A DNA stretch of 64,000 nt from assembly GCA_025800145.1 (NCBI GenBank), contig JAOXSH010000017.1, forward strand, positions 1 to 64,000. Reading direction: 5' to 3'. The notes beneath the pieces were generated by a model. That model was given only the letters and a program-made list of their open reading frames with translations, was not told where the DNA came from and did not search any database. How positions within the stretch are numbered: position 1 is the first letter of the stretch; each line of letters starts with the position of its first letter. This DNA is from Cohaesibacter sp. (GTDB taxonomy: Bacteria > Pseudomonadota > Alphaproteobacteria > Rhizobiales > Cohaesibacteraceae). A program made the translations under genes and the position numbers. This document shows, in pieces, positions 26,682-59,936 of this stretch.

Positions 26682-28346
26682 ATGTATCGCTATGATGAGT
26701 TTGATGCAGACTTTGTGCGCCAGCGTGTGGCACAGTTTCGCAATCAGGTCGAGCGCCGTTTGTCCGGCGAATTGACCGAAGACCAGTTCAAGCCATTGCG
26801 TTTGATGAATGGTCTTTATTTGCAGCTTCATGCCTATATGCTGCGTGTTGCCATTCCCTATGGGACGCTCAATAGCCGTCAAATGCATAAGCTGGCTGAC
26901 ATTGCGACCAAATATGACCGGGGCTATGGCCATTTCACCACCCGTCAGAATTTGCAATATAACTGGCCGAGTTTGAAGGATACGCCAGATATTTTGGAAG
27001 AATTGGCGGATGTGGAAATGCACGCCATTCAAACGTCGGGCAACTGCATTCGCAATGTGACCACCGATCACTTTGCCGGGGCGGCACATGACGAGATTGC
27101 TGATCCCAGAGTGTATGCGGAGATCATTCGCCAATGGTCCAGCTTGCATCCAGAATTTACGTTTCTGCCGCGCAAGTTTAAAATTGCCATCAATGGGGCG
27201 CGGGCGGACCGTGCGGCCATTCAGGTACATGATATCGGACTGCAATTGGTTGAGCGCGCTGCTGGTGGCGTTGGTTTTGCGGTTTATGTCGGTGGCGGGC
27301 AGGGGCGTACCCCGATGATTGCCAAGAAGGTTGCAGACTCAATCGCAGAAGAGGATATCCTGAGCTATCTGGAAGCGATCTTGCGTGTTTATAACCGCTA
27401 TGGTCGCCGGGATAACAAATATAAGGCCCGTATCAAGATTTTGGTGCATGAGACCGGCTTGGAAGAGCTGAAAAGTGCGATTGAAGCAGAATGGGCCAAT
27501 ATCAAGGATAGTGTTCTGAAGGTGCCTCAGTCCGAGATTGACCGGATCAATGACTATTTCGCTATGCCATCTTTGAAAGAAGATGGGGAGGGAGCGTCCA
27601 AGCTTGCACTCACACGGGCGCAAGATGCTGGCTTTAGCCAGTGGGTGAGCCAAAATACCTTTGCCCATAAAGTGAAAGATCATGTCTGCGTGACCATTTC
27701 CCTAAAGCCCGTCGGTGGCGTGCCGGGCGATGCAACGGACAAACAAATGCATGTGGTGGCTGATTTGGGCGCGCAATATGGTTATGATGAGCTGCGCATT
27801 TCCCATGAGCAAAACATCATTTTGCCCCATGTGGCCAAGTCTGATCTCTATCCGCTGTATCAGGCTTTGGTGACGGCTGATCTGGCAGAAGCCAATGCCG
27901 GTCTTGTGACCGATATCATTGCCTGCCCGGGTCTTGATTATTGTGCTTTGGCCAATGCCCGCTCCATCCCGATTTCGCAAGATATTTCCAATCGTCTTGG
28001 AGCGATTGAGCGGCAAAAGGATATTGGTGCCTTGAAAATCAAGATTTCCGGCTGCATCAATGCCTGTGGGCACCATCATGTTGGACATATCGGTATTCTT
28101 GGTGTGGATCGTAAAGGCGAAGAACTTTATCAAATCACGCTTGGCGGATCGGCGGATGAGAATACCTCTATTGGGGCTATTCTTGGGCGTGGATTTCCTG
28201 CGGAGGAAGTCACGGATGCCATTGAAAAGGTGATTGATACCTATCTTGGTTTGCGTCTCTCTGAGGATGAGCCGTTTATTGATGCCTATCGCCGGGTTGG
28301 ACCTGCGCCTTTTAAAGAAGCGCTTTATCCGGCAAAAGCGGCATAA
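26682..28346 (+). CDS. cysI: sulfite/nitrite reductase hemoprotein
   Basis: The 554-residue siroheme enzyme reduces sulfite to sulfide in cysteine synthesis. Visible marks are TSGNCIRNVTTDHFAG near 117, FKIAINGARADRAAIQVHDI and the [4Fe-4S]-siroheme cysteines in CPGLDYCALANARS (C-x5-C) and KISGCINACGHHHVGHIG (C-x3-C). Genomic position between DUF2849 and cysH identifies it as assimilatory sulfite reductase rather than nitrite reductase. Electron donor (ferredoxin or a flavoprotein) is not encoded nearby. Confidence 0.92.
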   Translation: MYRYDEFDADFVRQRVAQFRNQVERRLSGELTEDQFKPLRLMNGLYLQLHAYMLRVAIPYGTLNSRQMHKLADIATKYDRGYGHFTTRQNLQYNWPSLKDTPDILEELADVEMHAIQTSGNCIRNVTTDHFAGAAHDEIADPRVYAEIIRQWSSLHPEFTFLPRKFKIAINGARADRAAIQVHDIGLQLVERAAGGVGFAVYVGGGQGRTPMIAKKVADSIAEEDILSYLEAILRVYNRYGRRDNKYKARIKILVHETGLEELKSAIEAEWANIKDSVLKVPQSEIDRINDYFAMPSLKEDGEGASKLALTRAQDAGFSQWVSQNTFAHKVKDHVCVTISLKPVGGVPGDATDKQMHVVADLGAQYGYDELRISHEQNIILPHVAKSDLYPLYQALVTADLAEANAGLVTDIIACPGLDYCALANARSIPISQDISNRLGAIERQKDIGALKIKISGCINACGHHHVGHIGILGVDRKGEELYQITLGGSADENTSIGAILGRGFPAEEVTDAIEKVIDTYLGLRLSEDEPFIDAYRRVGPAPFKEALYPAKAA

Positions 28347-56105: not shown

Positions 56106-57851
56106 TCAGGATTGTTCGGTATAGGATCGGCCAGATGTACGCGACAGCAAGATGACAGGCACAATGCCAACAAGCACAATAGCCAGCGCTGCAAGAGAAC
56201 CTTTTTCAAACGCTTCCAGCGAGGCCTGCCCATAAACCAGCGTTGCCAATGTATCGAAATTGAATGGGCGCAACAAAATCGTTGCGGGCAATTCCTTCAT
56301 CACATCCACAAAAACCAGCAAGGCACCAGAGATCAGGGCAGGGCGGATCAAAGGCAGATCAACCGCGACCAATGTTTGAAAAGGCGTGCGACCAAGCGTT
56401 CTGGATGCCGCTTCCAGATTGCTGGAAATGCGTTGAAGACCGGTCTCTCCCGCGCCATAGGACATGGCCATGAAGCGCACACAATAAGCATAGAGCATAG
56501 CAGCGCCAGAGCTGAGCAAAAGCAGCCCCACCGTCAGGCCAAACCAGCTTTTCATCGAGGCGGCAATCCAGTTGTCCAATAGGGCCACCGGAATGAGGAT
56601 GCCAACAGCCAGCACTGTGCCCGGCACCGCATAGCCAATGGAGCTCAAACGGGTGATGGCACTGACATATCCCTTATTCTGGATACGGGCCATATAGGCA
56701 AGGGCCGTACCAATAGAGGCGGTCAAAAGAGCAGCAATCAGTGCCAGACCCAAGCTGTTGAAGCAGGCCTGAACAAACTCCGCGCTGAGATTGTCTTGCC
56801 AATGATAAAAAGACGACCGCAGCAAAACCATTGTGGGCAACACAAAGCCCAGAACAATCGGCAAGGCACAGATCAGGATAGCCAGAGCAGAGCGCCAGCC
56901 TGTCAGCCAATAGCTCGGCAAAGCCTGATAACGGCGTGTGGTTACATGATAGCGTTGATGGCGCCGTCCCCTGCGCTCCAACCAGAGTAAAAACAAAACC
57001 ACAATCAGCATAACGCTGGAAATTTGCGCAGCACCTGCCAGCGATGAGCGATTTAACCAAGTGTCATAAACACTGAAAGTCAGGGTTTTAACGCCAAAAA
57101 ATTCAACAGCGCCAATGTCATTCAGGCATTCCATCATGGCAAGGGTGGCACCAACCACAATGGCGGGGCGGGCCAGTGGCAAAGCCACTTTGAAAAACAA
57201 CCGCAAAGGACCGGCTCCCAATGTGCGCGACACATCCAGCGAGCAGGCTGATTGCAACATAAAGCTGGCGCGAGTGGTGAGATAAACATAAGGATAGAGC
57301 ACCAGACTCATCACAACAATCGCGCCACCAAGACTACGAATCTCTGGAAACCAGTAATCGCGGGCCGTTTGGAAGCCAAAAAGCCAACGAATAAATGTCT
57401 GTGCAGGCCCGGTATAATCCAGCAATTCAACCGATGTATAAGCCACAATATAGGTCGGAATGGCCAATGGAACTAGCAAAGCCCATTGAAAGAATGAGTG
57501 TCCTGGAAAGCGACACATGGTCACAAGCCAAGCTGTTGAAACACCAAGCAAAATAGTAAGGGCACCAACCCCCAGCATCATCTGGGCTGTGGTCAACACG
57601 GCACGCGGTAAAACGGTGCGCACAAGATGGGGCCAAACATCGCCAGCATCACCCAAAGCCAAGATCAGCAATGAGAGAATGGGAGCCAGAACAAAAAACA
57701 GCAAAAGGGCAAGTAACGCCCAGCCAATCCAAGTGCGCAGATTGGCCGTCAGGATAGAGCGCCAAAGCTGGTCAAAAAGGCTGCTCTCTTTCACAGGATC
57801 ACCCAGCAGCTCAAGCTGAGTTTGCTTCACATCCGCAGCGATATCATGCAC
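56106..57851 (-). CDS. fbpB: ferric-iron ABC transporter permease
   Basis: The 581-residue protein joins two permease halves with about 12 membrane helices, as in FbpB/SfuB/ThiP-type transporters. EAA-like loops are ASFMLQSACSLDVSRTLGAG followed by PLRLFFKVALPLARPA in the first half and LEAASRTLGRTPFQTLVAVD in the second. It passes Fe(III) from the binding protein at 58563 through the inner membrane. Start is GTG 57851. The ATPase gene is not in the window. It is separated from fbpA by an unusual 711-bp structured gap. Confidence 0.88.
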   Translation of the reverse strand: MHDIAADVKQTQLELLGDPVKESSLFDQLWRSILTANLRTWIGWALLALLLFFVLAPILSLLILALGDAGDVWPHLVRTVLPRAVLTTAQMMLGVGALTILLGVSTAWLVTMCRFPGHSFFQWALLVPLAIPTYIVAYTSVELLDYTGPAQTFIRWLFGFQTARDYWFPEIRSLGGAIVVMSLVLYPYVYLTTRASFMLQSACSLDVSRTLGAGPLRLFFKVALPLARPAIVVGATLAMMECLNDIGAVEFFGVKTLTFSVYDTWLNRSSLAGAAQISSVMLIVVLFLLWLERRGRRHQRYHVTTRRYQALPSYWLTGWRSALAILICALPIVLGFVLPTMVLLRSSFYHWQDNLSAEFVQACFNSLGLALIAALLTASIGTALAYMARIQNKGYVSAITRLSSIGYAVPGTVLAVGILIPVALLDNWIAASMKSWFGLTVGLLLLSSGAAMLYAYCVRFMAMSYGAGETGLQRISSNLEAASRTLGRTPFQTLVAVDLPLIRPALISGALLVFVDVMKELPATILLRPFNFDTLATLVYGQASLEAFEKGSLAALAIVLVGIVPVILLSRTSGRSYTEQS

Positions 57852-58155
57852 ACGCTTTTCCGTTCTTCTTCTGTTTCATAATCATTGATGCGGGTAGGCA
57901 TCGCACTCCCACCGACAACAAGAAGGTGCCCGCCAGGAAGCGTTCTTAAAACATGATTGTCATACACAAATTATTGGATGACAGCAAGTATTGCATCTTA
58001 TTTGCAACTGCATCAAAAGCGTTGATTTGGGGCAAATTCACTGCACTTTTCCCCATCACACAGACTTGTGAATGCAGATTGCGATCTCTGTTAAACAGAA
58101 TGATGCAGAAATGGGGGGATCAGGCTTGCCTTTTTTAAAAAGCTGTGCGAAAGGG

Positions 58156-58186
58156 AAAAAGGTGCCACGTTAGACGTGACACCTTT
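58156..58186 (-). terminator. rho-independent terminator, minus strand
   Basis: AAAGGTGCCACGT (58158-58170) pairs with ACGTGACACCTTT (58174-58186) at 12 of 13 positions around TAG. On the minus strand it is followed by a T-run. It ends the fbpA transcript or a small RNA about 375 bp beyond the fbpA stop. Confidence 0.85.
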
Positions 58187-58189
58187 CCA

Positions 58190-58548
58190 TAAAGACGGAG
58201 GACCAGTCTGTCTTTATTGCCTGTGCCCACTATGCGCGAAGATGAGATCTGACGTGAGGACCAGTCGCCGTGAGATCATATCCCTTCGCAGCGGGACTTG
58301 CGGGAAGTGCGCTTAGATTATGGATGCAAGAGGACCAATTCTGCATCGAGGGAACCTAAAGCACGGTATTGGACTAACCTTGATGAGCGACATGTGATCA
58401 ATCTGCAGGACCAAGCAGAAGGTCAGTGTCTGTGCCGGACTAGGGCTGGGCAAGGCGTCCAATTCTTGAAATCTCTTTCCTCCAAAACTGTTTAAAGTTT
58501 CAAATGTTGATCAATGTTCGAGCGGCCCGACCAGAGAAGAGGCCGCTC
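58190..58548 (-). ncRNA. candidate structured RNA: hairpin array with a common UGGUCCU loop
   Basis: Four hairpins carry the same 7-mer in the loop, written on the plus strand as AGGACCA: 58190-58216 (stem TAAAGAC/GTCTTTA), 58246-58277 (GATCTGACG/CGTGAGATC, one mismatch), 58323-58347 (GATGCA/TGCATC) and 58402-58419 (TCTGC/GCAGA). The stems are unrelated in sequence, so structure and loop are what is kept. A fifth stem, GAGCGGCC/GGCCGCTC at 58520-58548, has GACCA in its loop. The minus orientation is favoured because the array follows fbpA and ends in a T-run terminator. Read on the plus strand the loops would show A-GGA, as CsrA-binding RNAs do. Function unknown. Confidence 0.55.
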
Positions 58549-58562
58549 AGAAATATTAGAAC

Positions 58563-59597
58563 TTAATTTGCACCGGCATCAAAATCGACGATATCGACCA
58601 ATTCAGATGCTCTCTTGCGGGCATCCGCAACTTTGTTCAGGGATAGTGGGTCTGCTTTGAAAGAGCCCCAACTTTGCACCAGCTCGGAAGCAGGAACCCC
58701 TTCAAGCACAGGATATTCATGATTGACTTCGCCATAAATTTTCTGAGCGTCAGCGGAAGACAAAAATTCCATCAATTTGACCGCATTGGCTTTATTTGGC
58801 GCATATTTTGCCAGCAACATACCGGAAATATTCACGTGAGTGCCGCGATCATTGGTGTTGGGGAACAGAATGCGGACAGAATTTGCCCAATCTTTCTGCT
58901 CTGGATCTTTGTCATTGGTCTGCATTTTGCCCATATAATAGGTGTTACCCAATGACAGATCGCATTCACCGGAATAAATCGCCTTCACCTGAGCACGATC
59001 ATTGCCTGTTGGCTTGCGTGCCAGATTGGCCTTGACGCCTTCAAGCCACTTTTGGGCCTTTGCCTCACCCTTATGGGCAATCATCGACGCAAACAGCGCA
59101 ATGGAATAGACATGTTGACCGGAGCGGGTGCAGAGTTTGCCTTTCCATTTCGGATCAGCCAGCTCTTCATATGTAATGGAATCCTGCTCTACACGATCAT
59201 TGGAAGCATAAATCACACGGGCGCGTGTCGTTAGGCCAAACCATTCGCCATCTTTGTCGCGATACTGAGATGGAATATTCTTTTCCAGAACATCAGATTT
59301 CAGCGGCTGGGCAACGCCAACCATTTTCGCGCCATGAAGACGACCAATATCAACGGTCATGAGAATGTCGGCTGGAGAATTTTCACCTTCTGCCTTGATG
59401 CGGGCTTCCAGACCTTTTTTTGCAAAAATCACGTTGGTTTTGATGCCCGTTTTCTCAGAGAAAGCCTTCAGGAGAGGTTCAATAAGAAAGGGCTGGCGGT
59501 AAGAATATACATTCACTTCACCAGAGGCCAAAGCAGGGGCGCTAAACGCCGAACACATGGCAAGGGCCGCAAAGCTTGCGGCAATAGACTTTCTCAT
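58563..59597 (-). CDS. fbpA: ferric-iron ABC transporter substrate-binding protein
   Basis: The 344-residue periplasmic protein has signal peptide MRKSIAASFAALAMCSAFSA and the FbpA/FutA fold: GEVNVYSYRQPFLIEPLLKA, KTGIKTNVIFAKKGLEARIK, ADILMTVDIGRLHGAKMVGV, SGECDLSLGNTYYMGKMQTN with the paired tyrosines that bind iron, and FPNTNDRGTHVNISGMLLAK. ATG 59597 lies behind GGAGAAGAGTA. An iron-control box lies about 190 bp upstream. It delivers Fe(III) to the FbpB permease. Confidence 0.92.
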   Translation of the reverse strand: MRKSIAASFAALAMCSAFSAPALASGEVNVYSYRQPFLIEPLLKAFSEKTGIKTNVIFAKKGLEARIKAEGENSPADILMTVDIGRLHGAKMVGVAQPLKSDVLEKNIPSQYRDKDGEWFGLTTRARVIYASNDRVEQDSITYEELADPKWKGKLCTRSGQHVYSIALFASMIAHKGEAKAQKWLEGVKANLARKPTGNDRAQVKAIYSGECDLSLGNTYYMGKMQTNDKDPEQKDWANSVRILFPNTNDRGTHVNISGMLLAKYAPNKANAVKLMEFLSSADAQKIYGEVNHEYPVLEGVPASELVQSWGSFKADPLSLNKVADARKRASELVDIVDFDAGAN

Positions 59598-59936
59598 TAC
59601 TCTTCTCCAATCAACGGGGTTAAAGGCCCCACCATCGGTCATCCGCCAAACGATCAGCTTCTTAAAAATTGGTTTGAAGCTGCGTTGTTTGCGAGACCAA
59701 AATGCTGCGAATGGTTCGCATTGTCAATGAAGAGAAACTAAAAAATCAGTAAGTTAGCGTCAATAGAGTTTATGGCAGTTTAGAATTTTTCAAAATATCT
59801 TGTATAAGCAGCTCATATTTATCCATTTTAATTTTTCTTCAGGCGAATAAGAGGGAAATTGTTTTTTGTTGAAAAAAACTCTCATATTTATTTTTGAGCC
59901 AAAATCACAAAAAAGTCTGCATACAAACACACAGAA
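59598..59936. other. fbpA upstream region
   Basis: This gap is AT-rich and holds the Irr box candidate. No gene or other clear signal was recognised. Confidence 0.45.
59779..59795. promoter_or_regulatory. iron-control element (Irr box) candidate upstream of fbpA
   Basis: TTTAGAATTTTTCAAAA matches the rhizobial ICE consensus TTTAGAA-N3-TTCTAAA at 13 of 14 fixed positions. Irr binds such boxes to control iron uptake genes. The position, about 190 bp before the fbpA start, fits. Confidence 0.5.

Follow-up and report, generated by a model that had tools for sequence, protein, structure and literature searches.

A structured RNA with four near-identical loops behind fbpA in Cohaesibacter is a candidate iron-sparing antisense regulator

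Between the iron-transport genes fbpA and fbpB of a Cohaesibacter species, stem-loops of unrelated stem sequence carry the same loop, which raises the question of what the repeated loop serves. The region was analyzed within a stretch of 64,000 nucleotides, referred to here as the window. The motif AGGACCA was found at positions 58199-58205, 58257-58263, 58331-58337 and 58407-58413, each time inside a hairpin loop, as a preliminary description of the locus had reported. The minus-strand terminator that it placed after the array was likewise found, as a terminator-like stem, and the structured RNA ending there is about 316 nt long in the window and about 310-405 nt in relatives (Table 1). The stem of this terminator was absent from the listing of a consensus terminator scanner. 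The window contains eight copies of AGGACCA compared with 5.5 expected from shuffling; the total is unremarkable, and the clustering is unusual, with four of the eight copies being the array loops. In 1.2 Mb of the sister genome G012, four same-strand copies of TGGTCC within 300 bases occurred solely in its copy of the RNA (L465), and the same scan with a limit of 250 bases returned no place with four copies. A search of the whole window against 4227 Rfam families gave no match at the gathering score.

The view of the region as a hairpin array applies to the four loops. It does not apply to the hairpins as separate units, since P1, P2 and further closing stems of larger size enclose several of them. 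A fifth, GC-rich stem at 58520-58548, which had been counted with the array, was dropped: its loop reads CUGGUCG, not UGGUCC, and it lies between the fbpA stop codon and the conserved 5' boundary of the RNA and forms no conserved part of it. At the site of this stem, relatives have other hairpins (GCCCGGCTCTGGTCGGGC in G010).

Table 1. Features of the fbpA locus in the window
Feature	Position	Strand	Basis or conservation
Structured RNA, 3' part of the fbpA transcript	58150..58465	-	homologues after fbpA in 18/18 Cohaesibacter genomes
Closing stem P1, 5' arm GAAUUGG (conserved 5' boundary)	58459..58465	-	GAATTGG in 17/18, GAGATTGG in G017
Closing stem P1, 3' arm CCAAU	58368..58372	-	invariant in 18/18
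Hairpin H1, loop UUGGUCCU (octamer in the window RNA; UGGUCC invariant)	58402..58419	-	
Hairpin H2 within stem P2, loop containing UGGUCCU	58323..58347	-	
Domain II, with stem P2 enclosing H2 (approximate ends)	58308..58365	-	pairing in 18 genomes
Hairpin H3, loop containing CUGGUCC	58246..58277	-	
Hairpin H4, loop containing CUGGUCC	58190..58216	-	
Intrinsic terminator, stem 58158-58186 followed by TTTTTCCCTTT (T-rich tail)	58150..58186	-	covariation of the corresponding helix 9 in 14 other genomes
fbpA, periplasmic ferric-iron-binding protein (true start probably at 59597)	58563..59642	-	ORF; orthologues in 20/20 family genomes; name from the preliminary description
fbpB, ferric-iron ABC permease, next gene past the terminator in the window species	56106..57851	-	ORF; name from the preliminary description
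Candidate Fur-like operator of fbpA, inverted repeat TGCGAACCATTCGCA beside a TTGAC box	59706..59720	-	
ATTTTGAAAAATTCTAA, Irr-box-like (ICE) candidate	59780..59796	-	comparable stretches before fbpA in the genus, by eye

The distribution of the RNA was examined in the family, where all 20 genomes contain fbpA. In each of the 18 Cohaesibacter genomes the RNA follows directly after the fbpA stop codon and has a terminator-like end, in agreement with the earlier proposal that the array is, in minus orientation, a 3' region of the fbpA mRNA or an sRNA derived from it. No such RNA was found after fbpA in G018, which belongs to another genus of the family. In G019, also of another genus, the contig ends 234 nt after fbpA. 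The last 235 bases after this fbpA (L056) contain on the reverse strand, near the contig end, a hairpin with an AAGGUCC loop, possibly a remnant or precursor of the array. Among 397 genomes of the order, a triple-motif pattern matched 18/18 genomes of the genus, at the fbpA locus only, and 7 of the 379 others, where the printed matches resemble coding repeats; the reversed control of the pattern matched none of the 18 genus genomes. A covariance model of domain II, applied to 297 genomes of the order, gave 11 same-genus matches with E < 1e-12, which were all 11 drawn, and nothing convincing outside the genus, where four weak matches were obtained and the one inspected (L074) was coding-like. 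In a search of genome contigs the motif pattern matched four Cohaesibacter records (C. marisflavi, C. celericrescens, C. haloalkalitolerans and a Cohaesibacter MAG) and a coding repeat of Actinoplanes. At least 120 stretches of viral contigs fit the pattern and are supposed to be coding repeats.

Comparison of the homologous loci revealed both the loop motif and compensatory changes in the stems, the two features that the preliminary description had proposed to look for. UGGUCC is invariant at four places in 18/18 genomes. A hand-drawn structure of 70 base pairs was evaluated on 14 of the 18 sequences, leaving out the four of the window's own subgroup, whose 3' half is shorter and built differently. 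In this structure 91.7% of the cells were paired, a percentage that is favored by its having been drawn on one of the 14 sequences, compared with 34-45% in controls with the structure slid. Both sides had changed in 32 pairs versus 15.5 in shuffles, and none of 500 shuffles scored as high. In one alignment of the RNA, G017 is misaligned at its 5' end. For domain II all 18 genomes were compared: 96.3% of the cells of its 12 pairs were paired, and 7 of the 12 pairs showed double changes. The stems thus covary, as is expected of a structured noncoding RNA. Conservation in 18/18 genomes of the genus together with covarying stems places the array beyond chance, and the earlier suggestion of selection on both structure and loop was borne out. 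The heptaloop YUGGUCC was closed in 14/14 of the 14 sequences for H3 and H4 and in 12/14 for H1, and the pairs that carry this loop in H2 are weak or mismatched. The YUGG of the loop fits the YUNR U-turn known from antisense RNAs. In the minus-strand reading the structure contains 54 G-U cells versus 19 A-C cells, which indicates that the minus strand is the functional one.

The linker between domains II and III at 58294-58309 of the minus strand is CUUCCCGCAAGUCCC-like and conserved in part of the genus, and in nine other genomes it is CCCCUAGCGGUCC-like. It is possibly a second anti-Shine-Dalgarno segment. Nine genomes of the other subgroup have an additional GGUCC in the linker that precedes domain III. 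A coding RNA was also considered and rejected: on inspection by eye no ORF was common to all 18 RNAs, and their longest ORFs vary between subgroups.

The origin of the transcript was addressed next to the fbpA gene. The RNA starts just 21 nt (G016) and 23 nt (G006) past the fbpA stop codon. No sign of a promoter inside fbpA was seen, synonymous change not being lowered in the last blocks of the gene. A scanner found no sigma-70-type site in 57500-59500, a result that proves little for a consensus scan. The consensus of RNase E is RN↓WUU. The GAAUU at the 5' boundary of the RNA fits this consensus, which marks it as a possible processing site. Upstream of fbpA, inspection by eye showed TTGAC(T/A)(T/A)TG(C/A)GAnnnnTTCGCA at about the same place in 18/18 genomes and the perfect palindrome TGCGAA-N3-TTCGCA in 12/18. 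Farther upstream a TTTGGAAnnATTCTAA-like stretch that resembles an Irr box was seen by eye. As candidate Fur-like and Irr-like elements, these stretches would fit expression of fbpA and the trailing RNA at low iron.

Because the loop is the complement of AGGACCAG (AGGACC(AG)), which contains the Shine-Dalgarno core, gene starts were searched for this complement. The loop octamer pairs with AGGACCAG at -12.9 kcal/mol versus -3.5 kcal/mol with AGGAGAAC. One search used AGGACCAG-N1-9-ATG in 18 genomes and was evaluated among the matches listed; the other used RGGACCAG-N1-9-ATG in the window's own genome, G000. The neighborhoods of 172 distinct sites were inspected. Most motif-plus-ATG sites fall within coding sequence. 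A site was accepted as a gene start if the ORF had at least 80 aa, at most 60 open codons upstream and a Pfam match below 1e-5. Of these conditions, the limit of 80 aa was fixed beforehand, and the 60-codon and Pfam conditions were settled after the translations had been seen. A stricter rule also rejected starts whose motif was overlapped by a longer ORF in a different frame. This rule lost some recognized iron proteins and was set aside after these drops had been seen, and counts are given under both rules.

Iron or haem proteins accounted for 13 of the 24 Pfam-recognized gene starts in the four counted genomes, G008, G009 and G010 (AGGACCAG only) and G000 (RGGACCAG), the iron labels being our judgement of Pfam names. 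All five in G008 were of this kind: a sulfite/nitrite reductase (NIR_SIR), AlkB, a ferric-reductase-like protein, class I fumarase and a multihaem cytochrome. G009 contributed two of four (a 4Fe-4S protein and Edd), G010 three of seven (a cytochrome c, PaaA and a Rieske protein) and G000 three of eight (a cytochrome c, HemJ and a SoxX-like cytochrome). Proteins of the Fe-S, haem, diiron and Fe(II) types are abundant in the site-bearing set. On the strict list the remaining 11 of 24 were non-iron: CimA twice, HAGH, DctM, EamA, OsmC, SpoU, MCP, HyaE, MoaD and CbiX. HyaE, CbiX and MoaD are linked to metal cofactors, yet were scored non-iron. The names AlkB, Edd, HemJ, SoxX and CimA are finer than Pfam and reflect our reading of the sequences. 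The listed sites of the four genomes were read, in G008 35 of 38; the other three in G008 were C18:259 and, at C3:251650 and C3:251717, the antisense of the RNA itself. L305 and L309 entered the count via their scanned orthologues L277 and L212 (90% and 99% identical), and L251, L262, L264, L278 and L362 were dropped for want of a Pfam match. The start of L272 is unsure, its upstream frame being cut by the end of the stretch. G007 (13 stretches, some picked by eye), G015 (8 of 11 matches) and G017 (2 stretches) stand outside the count of 13/24.

As background, 40 random genes were taken from 363 with RGGANNNN ribosome-binding sites in 1.2 Mb of G012. A Pfam match was obtained for 38 of the 40, and iron proteins numbered one on the strict list (a ferrochelatase, itself an AGGACC site), two with UxuA and five on a lenient one. 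Comparison of 13/24 with 2/38 gave a Fisher P of 2e-5, with the background drawn from another species and called by another script than the counted sites. The idea had arisen from G008, and the other three genomes are therefore the fairer test. Without G008 the count was 8/19 versus 2/38 (P 0.0013), and P was 0.019 for 8/19 against the lenient background. The stricter start rule gave 9/18 (P 2.4e-4), and 5/14 without G008 (P 0.011). The scrambled motif RGGACAGC in G000 (30 of 41 matches, 28 distinct sites) yielded four gene starts, none of them for an iron protein. Bare AGGACC showed no general excess at ribosome-binding sites: in the G012 sample it occurred in 19 of 828 genes, close to the average for the 16 AGGANN words, and the genes that carry it include HemH and CtaE and are mostly non-iron. 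In G000 the motif-plus-ATG sites numbered 30, below the 41 of the scrambled motif. The signal is which genes carry the site, not the number of sites.

Conservation of single sites was followed across genomes. Class I fumarase has (A/G)AGGACC four bases before the ATG in 18/18 Cohaesibacter genomes. About ten of these 18 leaders are nearly identical and therefore represent fewer independent lineages; the remaining leaders have clearly different flanks. The enzyme was found in 7 of 34 other genomes searched, and AGGACC preceded the start in 0/7 of these outgroups, which include G018 and of which some have uncertain start codons. For the sulfite/nitrite reductase (NirA), AGGACC is present in 5 of 14 genomes and absent from the rest, the window's own included. 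In the window, the start of this gene (26682-27455, plus strand) has the ribosome-binding site AGGAGAAG, without the motif of the five relatives. AGGACCAG is kept for CimA in four genomes, for PaaA in two and for cytochrome c in two, with flanks that differ among the CimA genes and hardly among the PaaA genes. The citramalate-synthase-like CimA of the HMGL family (L217, L313, L359 and L381) is a non-iron enzyme with AGGACCAG at its ribosome-binding site. The citramalate pathway feeds Fe-S dehydratases.

Several functions other than antisense action were weighed against these results. A conserved protein might bind the YUGGUCC loop, so that the RNA would act as a sponge or scaffold in the manner of a Csr sponge with another protein. 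An identical loop on unrelated stems in 18/18 genomes is what a hairpin-binding protein would select, and four copies would suit a sponge. However, CsrA is absent, and such binding predicts neither the complement of the loop on the ribosome-binding sites of iron proteins nor the fumarase pattern, and we regard it as unlikely. The plus-strand version of this idea, a CsrA/RsmA sponge with A-GGA loops, had been raised in the preliminary description and finds AGGA within the plus-strand loops. It was rejected and its probability is close to nil: the CsrA family PF02599 had no match in any of the 20 family genomes, compared with matches in 3 of 14 control genomes, the terminator is on the minus strand, and the balance of G-U over A-C cells speaks for the minus reading.

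The RNA could also be a 3' element acting in cis only, which would stabilize the fbpA mRNA and separate its expression from that of fbpBC without any role in trans. When the following gene was judged by eye in the 18 genomes, the RNA lay between fbpA and fbpB in seven, with the terminator at its end, as this explanation would have it. The RNA is, however, also kept in ten genomes where the next gene apparently runs in the opposite direction (in G017 neither arrangement was found within 1 kb). A stabilizer, moreover, has no need of identical loops, and the target enrichment would be unaccounted for; a purely cis-acting element thus appears slightly less probable even than a protein-binding one. 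Large ornate RNAs are known to multimerize by loop-loop kissing, and the present RNA might fold or multimerize through GGUCC, which is self-complementary except for a central U-U. RNAalifold paired the loop of H1 with that of H4, and GGUCC with GGUCC would form four G-C pairs. Invariant loops, however, offer no compensatory change in support, the palindrome is imperfect and the target sites are left unexplained, which makes kissing the faintest prospect after the CsrA sponge.

As judged from sequence comparison, the fbpA transcript probably gives rise, at its 3' end, to a trans-acting, iron-sparing antisense RNA. The loop of this RNA is complementary to the ribosome-binding sites of numerous iron-using proteins, which suggests that the RNA shuts these proteins down at low iron. 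The predicted targets are rich in iron proteins and the complementarity lies at the ribosome-binding site, as in the iron-sparing class. Repeated presentation of UGGUCCU to a target RNA had been anticipated in the preliminary description, and the present prediction agrees with it and names likely targets, which that description had not done. In the proposed mechanism, low iron would derepress the fbpA promoter, and the RNA would either be freed from the fbpA mRNA, with cleavage by RNase E at GAAUU as a possible route, or act in place. Each loop, with Y-U-G-G-U-C-C arranged as a YUNR U-turn, would offer GGUCC for pairing. Pairing would mask the Shine-Dalgarno sequence and block translation of iron proteins, and iron would thereby be left for essential uses. 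With four loops per molecule, one RNA could silence several mRNAs or bind more avidly, and the coupling to fbpA would make iron import and iron sparing subject to one switch.

Iron-sparing RNAs are known from gammaproteobacteria, Neisseria and Firmicutes. RyhB, PrrF and NrrF are short RNAs with their own promoters, whereas the Cohaesibacter RNA is about 310-405 nt long, has several domains and lies behind fbpA. One anti-Shine-Dalgarno motif repeated several times, as observed here, is also a property of LhrC of Listeria and the CcsR 'cuckoo' RNAs of Rhodobacter. Their repeats, however, are spread over several gene copies, use UCCC/CCUCCUCCC motifs and have no link to iron. The proposed logic, in which low iron leads to silencing of iron-using proteins by an RNA, resembles that of RyhB, PrrF and NrrF as outlined in excerpts of two papers (PMC11005374, PMC9410917). 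IsrR of Staphylococcus, in the excerpted description, is an iron-sparing RNA that directs several exposed motifs, two of three of them in hairpin loops, against the Shine-Dalgarno regions of Fe-S enzyme mRNAs; it is set apart by C-rich motifs in place of a repeated UGGUCC loop, by Fur regulation and by its occurrence in Firmicutes (PMC9410917). FsrA of Bacillus subtilis is presented there as iron-sparing by Shine-Dalgarno pairing as well, and it differs in having a C-rich motif and three helper proteins and in belonging to another phylum (PMC9410917). RusT of Caulobacter crescentus is, as the present RNA would be under the proposed mechanism, alphaproteobacterial, trans-acting and induced by iron starvation, but according to excerpts of the 2024 paper it is controlled by NtrYX and its largest target class is transporters, e.g. 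TonB-dependent receptors; the same excerpts state that no sRNA of the Caulobacter Fur regulon is known (PMC11005374). No iron-sparing RNA of the present kind was found for alphaproteobacteria in the literature among the matches listed. The RNA described here is a concrete candidate for iron sparing in this class and comes with predicted targets. IsrR, RyhB and FsrA are described as acting in the manner proposed here, but its architecture, genomic home and seed differ from theirs. We lean, with less assurance than for antisense action as such, towards a multivalent regulator of iron sparing that represents a new RNA family. Import and economy would be fused in one transcript, four near-identical U-turn loops would be interchangeable seeds, and evolution would have brought the Shine-Dalgarno sequences of the regulon closer to AGGACCAG. 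Such an iron-sparing RNA would be the first of RyhB type described in the Hyphomicrobiales, and perhaps in the alphaproteobacteria. The suggested design is a convergence of many ribosome-binding sites on a single loop sequence, each copy of which can presumably serve any target.
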